Positions 35,083 to 63,437 of a DNA stretch of 64,000 nucleotides are shown piece after piece. The notes beneath the pieces were generated by a model, which saw only the letters and a program-made list of their open reading frames with translations, made no database searches and was not told where the DNA came from. Each line of letters opens with the position of its first letter. The stretch's first letter is position 1. Source of the DNA: Aerococcus kribbianus (lineage in GTDB: Bacteria; Bacillota; Bacilli; Lactobacillales; Aerococcaceae). The stretch covers positions 62,001 through 126,000 of the forward strand of contig NZ_JAPRFR010000002.1 of assembly GCF_026805545.1 (NCBI RefSeq), read 5' to 3'. The translations under genes and the position numbers were made by a program.

Positions 35083-35155
35083 AAAAAAGACTGGGAATCT
35101 CATCCCAGCCTTTTTTTGTGATATATGACCATTGATCTCTTAGTCGAGTTCTGAA
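35083..35155 (-). repeat. Terminator-associated repeat, copy B (hom terminator)
   Basis: Minus strand: CAGAACTCGACTAAGAGATC, then AATGGTCATATATCACAAAA, then the stem AGGCTGGGA..TCCCAGTCT with TTTTTT. It ends the hom transcript. It shares its flank with copies A, C and D. Confidence 0.75.
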
Positions 35156-35320
35156 ATGCAGCTCCTTCAACTGTGTCATAAAATCATTTGGATATTGTTT
35201 GTCTAGTCATCAGTTGGGCTCTCAAAAGCAGGACTGACGTGCGTTTCCCAAAAGGCTTTGGTAGTGTGTCGCTATCTTCAGCCTTTTGGTCCAACGCTTC
35301 CGTCCTAACGCTTTTCATCG
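35133..35320 (-). repeat. Structured hairpin repeat, unit U1
   Basis: Plus-strand ends are CTCTTAGTCGAGTTCTGAAA at the left and TAACGCTTTTCATC at the right. Inside is a long imperfect hairpin: AAAAGC/GCTTTT (35224-35229 with 35310-35315), AGGAC/GTCCT (35230-35234 with 35302-35306), GCGTT/AACGC (35241-35245 with 35293-35297) and CCAAAAGGCT/AGCCTTTTGG (35248-35257 with 35280-35289). An extra segment of about 70 bases separates the left end from the hairpin. Confidence 0.65.
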
Positions 35321-35328
35321 CACCCTAT

Positions 35329-35440
35329 CTAGTCGAGTTCTAAAAAACAGCCCCATCAGTATTTTTTGCAAATGAGTCAGTATTCTGCGAATACTTCCTA
35401 TTTTTAAACAAATTCTTTGGGGCTAACCGTTTTTCATCTC
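35329..35440 (-). repeat. Structured hairpin repeat, unit U2
   Basis: It begins CTAGTCGAGTTCTAAAAAAC and ends GGCTAACCGTTTTTCATC on the plus strand. Pairings: AAAAAC/GTTTTT (35343-35348 with 35429-35434), AGCCCCA/TGGGGCT (35349-35355 with 35418-35424) and an apical AGTATTC-TGC-GAATACT (35379-35395). It lies directly after the hom stop, and most of its 110 bases match unit U3 after rplT. Confidence 0.85.
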
Positions 35441-35444
35441 ATCC

Positions 35445-36719
35445 TTATTGTCCTAATATAGGATAGATACGATCGATACTTATCCCATCAATGTTTTCTA
35501 TTTCTGCAATCAATTCCTTGCTATCTTGCCAGGTCATTGCTTGGCTGATTGCCAACACATGGTGGCGTCCAATGGGAGTTAATTGATTGAGACTAGCCCC
35601 GTATTTTTCAAACAAGGCCGTTAACTTAAACAAGCCCTTGTCTCGATCTAGCAATTTAAAATGATAGAAATTAGCAAAGATTTCTCGATCAGCGGCAGAT
35701 AAGTTTAAGGGCACATGATAACGGGATAAAGCAGGGATGTGTTCTTGATGAACAAGAGCATCGACAATTTTTAGAATATCAGCTACAACCATATTTCCTG
35801 TTGGTAGCGCACCAGTGCCTGGCCCGTAAAACATCACTTCTCCACTAGCCCAGCCTCTGGTATAAATAGCATTCATTGGGCCAGTAACAGTAGCTAACTG
35901 ATGATTCTTTGGCACTAGACTTGGCCCTACCTGAACAGATAAAGCGCCATCATCATCCAAAATAGCTGTTGCTAAAGGCTTAATCAGATAACCTAACGTA
36001 CTAGTATTTTTAATATCTTCTGACGTCACATGATCAATACCGCGAATGGCCATTTTATCTAGAGGAATAGTCATCCCAAAGGCCAAACGACACAAGATGG
36101 CAAGCTTACGCGCAGCATCCAAGCCGTCAATATCATTAGTCGGGTCAGTTTCGGCAAAACCTTTATCTTTTGCAGCTTGCAAGGCTTCTTCAAAGGACAG
36201 GCCTTGGTCAGTCATTTCACTCAAAATATAATTACTAGTTCCGTTGATAATCCCTGACAAGGAATGAAGGCCTTCAGCACGGAAACTTGTCCGTAAACTC
36301 TCTAAAATGGGAATACCACCCGCAACGGCAGCCTCATAGTACAAGGCCAAGCCTTGGCTTTGGGCCAAGTTTGTCAACTCTTCTCCATTTTGAGCCATTA
36401 AAATTTTATTAGCAGTCACCACATGTTTGCCTGCCTTCAGCGCAGCTTCAATACAATCTTTAGCAAAGTCCACTCCACCCATGGCTTCCACAACAATCGT
36501 AATGGATTCATCTGTCAGTATGGCATCTAAAGAATCTACAAGTTCAAAGTCATGATGGGCTGTTTTGACATAGTTACCGCGATTTCTAAGCAAGGCCTTC
36601 TTTACTTGCACCTGACAAGCCATTGACGTAGCAATTTTCTCTTCTTGTTGTTTAAGCACCTGATAGGTCCCACTTGCAACTGTCCCGAAGCCTAAGAAGG
36701 CGATATAAATTGTCTCCAT
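35445..36719 (-). CDS. hom: Homoserine dehydrogenase
   Basis: NAD(P)-dependent reduction of aspartate semialdehyde to homoserine, the branch to threonine and methionine. The product is 424 residues: the Rossmann motif IAFLGFGTVASGTYQVL, the substrate region with GGIPILESLR and the signature GLDAARKLAILCRLAFG (preceded by DPTNDIDG), then a C-terminal ACT domain (about residues 345-424) for feedback control. A GTG at 36722 adjoins, but ATG 36719 is six bases from AAAGGAG. No thrC or thrB follows; the gene is followed by the hairpin repeats. Confidence 0.96.
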   Translation of the reverse strand: METIYIAFLGFGTVASGTYQVLKQQEEKIATSMACQVQVKKALLRNRGNYVKTAHHDFELVDSLDAILTDESITIVVEAMGGVDFAKDCIEAALKAGKHVVTANKILMAQNGEELTNLAQSQGLALYYEAAVAGGIPILESLRTSFRAEGLHSLSGIINGTSNYILSEMTDQGLSFEEALQAAKDKGFAETDPTNDIDGLDAARKLAILCRLAFGMTIPLDKMAIRGIDHVTSEDIKNTSTLGYLIKPLATAILDDDGALSVQVGPSLVPKNHQLATVTGPMNAIYTRGWASGEVMFYGPGTGALPTGNMVVADILKIVDALVHQEHIPALSRYHVPLNLSAADREIFANFYHFKLLDRDKGLFKLTALFEKYGASLNQLTPIGRHHVLAISQAMTWQDSKELIAEIENIDGISIDRIYPILGQ

Positions 36720-36730
36720 CACAGTCTCCT

Positions 36731-62913: not shown

Positions 62914-62983
62914 AAAAAAGCTGGAACGAGTGGTTCCAGCTTCATTATATATATGAACATTTATCTCTTAGTTGAGTTCTGAA
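62914..62983 (-). repeat. Terminator-associated repeat, copy D (rplT terminator)
   Basis: Minus strand: CAGAACTCAACTAAGAGATA, then AATGTTCATATATATAATG, then the stem AAGCTGGAAC-CACTC-GTTCCAGCTT (62918-62942) and TTTTTT. It ends the infC-rpmI-rplT transcript and adjoins hairpin unit U3. Confidence 0.8.
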
Positions 62984-63077
62984 AAACAGCCCCATCAGTA
63001 TTTTCTGCAAATGAGTCAATATTCTGCCAATACTTCCCATTTGCAGACAAATCCTTTGGGGATAACCGTTTTTCATC
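62959..63077 (-). repeat. Structured hairpin repeat, unit U3
   Basis: It begins ATCTCTTAGTTGAGTTCTGA and ends GGGATAACCGTTTTTCATC on the plus strand. Pairings: AAAAAC/GTTTTT (62982-62987 with 63068-63073), AGCCCCA/TGGGGAT (62988-62994 with 63057-63063, one mismatch) and CTGCAAATG/CATTTGCAG (63005-63013 with 63038-63046). It lies straight after the rplT stop and matches unit U2 after hom. Confidence 0.85.
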
Positions 63078-63083
63078 TTATTC

Positions 63084-63437
63084 TTATAGTGCTGCTTTGG
63101 CCTGATCGCAAATAGCTGCAAAAGCATCAGCATCATTAACTGCTAAATCAGCCAACATTTTACGGTTAATATCAACGTTTGATTGTTTCAAGCCATTGAT
63201 TAATTTGCTGTAGCTTAAGCCGTTTTGACGAGCAGCAGCGTTGATACGAGTAATCCATAGACGACGGAAGTCACGTTTCTTTTGACGACGGTCGCGGTAT
63301 GAATAAGTGTAAGATTTCATAACAGCTTGTTTAGCTGTCTTGTATAACTTAGACTTAGATCCATAATAACCTTTTGCTAATTTTAAATATTTTTTACGAC
63401 GATTGCGGCTAACAATACCACCTTTAACTCGTGCCAT
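63084..63437 (-). CDS. rplT: 50S ribosomal protein L20
   Basis: L20 binds 23S rRNA early in 50S assembly and in Bacillus represses its own operon through the leader. The product is 117 residues: [20 protein letters not shown] and [20 protein letters not shown] at the start, then [20 protein letters not shown], all standard. The last gene of infC-rpmI-rplT, about 100 bases after rpmI. Its 3' region carries the hairpin repeat and terminator. Confidence 0.98.

Follow-up and report, generated by a model that had tools for sequence, protein, structure and literature searches.

ERIC elements form a single long, imperfect hairpin (about 127 bp) and are transcribed in mRNAs in Yersinia. In Enterococcus faecalis, the EFAR repeat, reportedly described by Venditti et al. 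in 2007, is said to be assembled modularly from sequence types and to integrate into a stem-loop target. The Efa-1 element of the same species is 163 bp in length, present in 65 copies, intergenic and composed of two adjacent stem-loops (Cozzuto et al. 2008, PMC2267715). Here we describe a family of structured, modular 3'-UTR repeats in Lactobacillales that is much wider than the kind known from one species. The starting point is the hom locus of Aerococcus kribbianus, within a 64,000-nucleotide stretch of contig NZ_JAPRFR010000002.1 (positions 62,001 to 126,000 of the forward strand; hereafter the window, to which coordinates refer unless prefixed). The repeat is probably a modular, non-autonomous mobile 3'-UTR hairpin element of the Efa-1/EFAR kind, in an Aerococcaceae form, with a shape that is kept by selection on RNA.

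Layout of the hom locus

The host gene hom (35445..36722, minus strand) encodes homoserine dehydrogenase (Pfam Homoserine_dh, 1.4e-56) and ends in a TAA stop codon at 35445-35447. The RNA strand of the units at this locus is likewise the minus strand, that of hom. Directly 3' of the stop codon lies a complete unit of type B (35330..35444, minus strand, 115 nt), a bulged hairpin that reads GGATGAGATG...AGAACTCGACTA, is matched by covariance model R1 (G000:C2:97330-97444, E=5.7e-21) and folds at -31.4 kcal/mol compared to -25.7 kcal/mol for the opposite strand. A 4-nt spacer separates this unit from a second complete unit, of type C (35211..35325, minus strand, 115 nt), which reads GGGTGCGATG...GAGCCCAACTG, is also matched by R1 (G000:C2:97211-97325, E=4.4e-21) and folds at -44.4 kcal/mol. 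The next element is the 3' remnant of a type-A unit (35141..35208, minus strand), which ends in the linker AGAACTCGACTA and was recognized by its similarity in sequence to full type-A units from other parts of the genome. A conserved tail, GATCAATGGTCATATATCAC, and an intrinsic terminator, AAAAGGCTGGGAtgagatTCCCAGTCTTTTTT, complete the array (together 35083..35140, minus strand). The terminator occupies about 35083-35119 and reads GGCTGGGATGAGATTCCCAGTCTTTTTT; the same tail and terminator are found 3' of many other arrays.

The original prediction had described two tandem units with nearly the same ends, differing interiors folded into long hairpins, basal stems with compensatory changes and an asymmetric bulge. 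The shared ends, the long hairpins with differing interiors and the compensatory stems were all confirmed at this locus, and the bulge measures 3-4 nt. The second of the proposed units (U2) is the type-B unit, with its limits corrected to 35330-35444, whereas the first (U1, 35133-35320) is not a single unit but the complete type-C unit plus the type-A remnant. Placement between the hom stop codon and the terminator was also as proposed. This sense position supports the further claim that the repeat lies inside the mRNA, its transcription being presumed from position.

The window contains a third complete unit, type-B-like (62969..63083, minus strand), which is matched by R1 (G000:C2:124969-125083, E=1.5e-15) and folds at -41.7 compared to -29.7 kcal/mol for the opposite strand. 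This unit is located directly 3' of the rplT stop codon and has the same tail and terminator downstream; the ORF upstream (63084-63437) reads by eye as ribosomal protein L20.

Copy number, structure and covariation

Linker-centred units were extracted from the genome, and 21 of these were used to build R1. Six sequence types, A to F, were distinguished among the extracted units. The linker TAGTCGAGTTCT occurs 18 times in the genome as an exact match and 47 times when one mismatch is tolerated, compared to 12 for the reversed control. By use of R1, 135 matches at E<=1 were detected in the 1.58-Mb genome, about 120 of them below 1e-4. The units form 75 arrays (loci) with up to six units per chain; neighbouring units share the same orientation in 60 of 61 pairs and are mostly separated by spacers of 2-4 nt. 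The covariance-model search of the genome, set as a test beforehand, thus returned many copies, which are not confined to the hom locus. Type-F units (e.g., G000:C1:349636-349754) contain AAGGAGACAAAAAATG, which resembles a ribosome site with a start codon and begins a short, putatively coding frame across the linker.

Within the Aerococcaceae, R1 matches were found in at least 41 of 76 genomes and at least 11 of 21 genera, and within the order Lactobacillales in at least 85 of 395 genomes and at least 25 of the 80 genera sampled. These counts are lower bounds, as the wide searches scored a small number of candidates in each genome. No R1 match was found in four species of the genus (G004, G005, G008 and G011), compared to dozens in others, a pattern suggestive of loss or late arrival. 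In Rfam 15, no family matched the window units, four array loci or a further 12 loci from other genomes at the gathering threshold. Neither of the outcomes named beforehand as refuting the original prediction was obtained.

Units are about 115-119 nt in length and are joined by the common linker CGACUA-AAA-GGRUGNGA. Read from the base upward, the usual layout is a basal stem of 4 bp, a 4/2 loop, a stem of 8 bp, a 3-4/0 bulge and a stem of about 8 bp, followed in the upper part by a small loop, a stem of 4-6 bp, a 3/2 loop, two more stems and an end loop of mostly 3-5 nt. The bulge is on the 5' side only and starts with G in 28 of 40 units; a purine loop, GGA/GAA, is present at the 3/2 loop, also in 28 of 40. 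The basal stem GGRUG/CYCGAC covaries within the linker, with GGAUG paired to CUCGAC and GGGUG paired to CCCGAC. The unit ends GGRTGNGA and CGACTA show no inverted repetition of the MITE type other than this basal stem of 3-4 bp.

Covariation was analyzed for 80 units from other genomes, in an alignment that was fitted to the R1 model itself. Over the 15 model pairs, 94.3% of cells were paired; two-sided changes were detected in 342 cells and were represented at all 15 pairs. The covariation score was 0.732, compared to at most 0.146 with the partners slid (about 0.15 when slid by one column). An alignment-free scan of 40 units less than 75% alike, which used end distances only, ranked the diagonals of the model stems first. 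The top diagonals joined positions 9-15 with -12 to -18 and positions 23-27 with -22 to -26, and the four-base register shift between them corresponds to the bulge. Pairing is thus conserved while sequence changes. Taken together, the 135 R1 matches, the covariation of 15 of 15 model pairs in other genomes and the alignment-free recovery of the stems place the hom-locus repeat far beyond chance.

The two strands of the unit differ. The host-gene strand folds better in 77 of 80 units, and single changes at paired positions give G-U rather than A-C at a ratio of 92:52 among the copies of this genome and 30:16 in other genomes, a modest excess of G-U. This bias in stability and G-U favours selection on RNA but is not conclusive, because the copies are related, the cells are non-independent and the purine loops add stability. 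The earlier proposal that the fold is kept by selection or by a copying mechanism is supported by the many copies, the strong covariation and the same gene-end placement here and in other genera.

Placement at gene ends and turnover of arrays

The arrays of this genome follow a same-strand gene in 59 of 75 cases. A sense stop codon is present within 20 nt of 43 of the 75 arrays, compared to an antisense stop codon for one. In other genomes, a sense stop codon was found within 30 nt for 39 of 57 arrays and an antisense one for a single array, and in three congeners read in depth the counts were 35 of 55 (sense) and 0 (antisense). Overlap with an ORF call was limited to 6 of 75 arrays, although single gene-array distances may be off because gene calls relied on a simple ORF rule. 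Downstream, a terminator-like hairpin with a T run lies within 130 nt of 42 of 54 sense arrays, compared to 0 for shuffled sequence, and the T run begins most often 51-56 nt past the array. These results show a structure under covariation in sense position between stop codon and terminator.

Perfect GGCTGGGA...TCCCAGCC hairpins number 27 in the genome, of which 20 adjoin an array by coordinate comparison. Five solo hairpins of this kind were read; four were without tail and one had a unit remnant. A recurrent terminator, GAGGCTGGGA..TCCCAGCCTC (L204, L120, window 35083-35119 and many array ends), is located mostly 3' of arrays and is preceded by GATAAATGTTCATATATTA or by a second tail form, GAAAACNTATAACTAGGATAAATCGAA.

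Comparison with the three congeners revealed that host genes are hardly shared. Among 45 array-bearing genes of these species, 3 had a clear orthologue among the array-bearing genes of this genome; about 1.7 would be expected by chance, a rough estimate that assumes arrays to be placed independently among about 1450 genes. The type of site is thus conserved but not the individual site, as predicted by dispersal with selection for harmless sites. The congener hom is only about 45% identical and has no alignable flanks, and no empty site for a whole array was found in comparison with the congeners, which are too distant.

This turnover bears on whether the units constitute a family of cis-acting regulatory RNAs dedicated to particular genes, acting for instance on mRNA stability or through protein binding, and kept gene by gene in their 3' UTRs. 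Such a family would account for the strong covariation, the conserved GGA/GAA loop and bulge and the sense position between stop codon and terminator, but it is disfavoured by host genes that differ between species as by chance, as well as by a copy number that varies between 0 and more than 100 in a single genus and by chains that reach six units. We therefore consider gene-by-gene regulation unlikely and favour a mobile element of the Efa-1/EFAR kind.

Array composition was examined with regard to how units are gained and lost. None of 47 adjacent typed pairs in this genome consisted of same-type neighbours, compared to 8.3 expected by shuffling (p=0.0002), and the compositions include EFBAC, FDBDC and CABDE. 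Growth by tandem duplication is thus disfavoured in this genome; in G001, identical neighbouring units do occur. Partial units at array ends are asymmetric, with a 5' piece following 25 of 75 arrays and a 3' piece preceding 6 of 75. A CRISPR-like polarity, with newer units at the 5' end, was rejected, as the divergence of first and last units is equal (p=0.93).

At one site, located behind a small holin-like gene, the sequences of two Lactococcus and two Enterococcus plasmids are nearly identical apart from a difference of exactly one unit. A 10-bp linker repeat, CGTCGTTTAT, is present at the joint, and the difference could be a deletion between the 10-bp repeats instead of an insertion. The L. 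garvieae plasmids that lack the hairpin were discarded as a clean empty site, as the neighbouring gene is absent as well. In Enterococcus and Lactococcus plasmids (L223, L224 and L228), the unit is located directly behind the stop codon of a short gene, which is annotated in one record as a putative holin-like toxin. These comparisons show that arrays gain or lose single units and that host genes turn over from species to species.

Exchange of complete units precisely at the linker is also what would be expected of a hairpin site that acts in single-stranded DNA, whether attC-like or replication-linked, with a site-specific recombinase exchanging units at the linker. In attC sites, structure is kept and sequence is not, similarly to the units described here. 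The sense orientation to genes and position before terminators, the bias of G-U to one strand and the lack of genes between units all argue against such a DNA-level site, which we regard as very unlikely. That the units are merely strong bidirectional transcription terminators is highly unlikely: the gene-end position is as would be expected, but the units have no U run, and a separate terminator follows most sense arrays (see above).

We return to the mobile 3'-UTR hairpin element as the preferred explanation. As to its mobility, manner of movement and effect on the mRNA, we infer the following. The unit, which folds into one long hairpin, would form part of the 3' UTR of the preceding gene and be transcribed in sense with it, as judged from its position. 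Units of different types are chained via the common linker, and the chain ends in the tail and intrinsic terminator. The element is presumably non-autonomous and mobile, and may survive where the 3' UTR can be lengthened without touching coding sequence or terminator. Its shape would be kept because an RNA hairpin is needed, most likely one that renders the inserted stretch nuclease-resistant and harmless to the host mRNA; recognition of the hairpin by the copying machinery is an alternative need. More speculatively, the units may represent a mobile class that is copied as, or recognized via, structured RNA, enters transcripts in sense between stop codon and terminator and is moved by a not-yet-known enzyme. 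We hold this to be doubtful; if true, a bacterial order would harbour a very large number of interchangeable 3'-UTR hairpin modules, preserved through compensatory evolution.

The family represents an RNA structure found across an order, with over 100 copies in one genome, that is absent from Rfam. Two questions become testable: by what means such elements move in the absence of a Y1 transposase, and how the mRNA is affected when long hairpins are chained between its stop codon and terminator. The repeats are also relevant to annotation, assembly and small-RNA work in Lactobacillales.

Comparison with known repeats

REP/BIME elements mobilized by a RAYT (HUH, Y1) transposase are likewise clustered intergenic palindromes with bulged stems, but their units are 20-40 nt rather than 115 nt, and Y1_Tnp (PF01797) was not found in this genome (G000) or in its congeners G001, G002 and G012, all of which have many unit copies, so that REP/RAYT is ruled out for this genome and is almost certainly not the explanation of the units.

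Other repeats were compared by description rather than by sequence. RUP and BOX of Streptococcus pneumoniae are small dispersed intergenic repeats, and BOX is modular; the layout of BOX modules differs from that of units of the hom-locus type. ERIC resembles the present units in its long imperfect hairpin, but is from another phylum and does not form chains.

The closest relation is to Efa-1/EFAR. Genome G318, which we take to be E. faecalis based on the presence of the E. faecalis ddl primer site, has R1 matches with weak scores (E=5.8e-5 to 0.03). Its units show the same succession of stem, GUUUA bulge and stem, with a terminator hairpin downstream, and 47 matches to one of these units, taken together with its tail, are present in that genome. 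A similar layout was observed in a named E. faecalis record. Based on these matches, the stem order, the 47 copies and the similar record, Efa-1 and EFAR, compared by description, appear to be the E. faecalis branch of the unit family. The original statement that no named family fits thus holds for Rfam but not for the E. faecalis branch, which resembles published Efa-1 (EFAR).

Similar to the Aerococcaceae units, Efa-1/EFAR is intergenic, structured and palindromic, with dozens of dispersed copies, and its reported variable assembly of types is likewise seen in the arrays of this genome. Efa-1/EFAR consists of a pair of adjacent stem-loops of about 163-170 bp, to which the 115-nt unit plus tail and terminator corresponds here, the T run beginning most often 51-56 nt further on. 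Unlike Efa-1/EFAR, the Aerococcaceae units form chains of up to six, with six types and over 100 copies in one genome. Beyond Efa-1/EFAR, we show sense placement and covariation for units from many genera, and a repeat known from one species is now linked to a family of many genera that is placed in sense in 3' UTRs.
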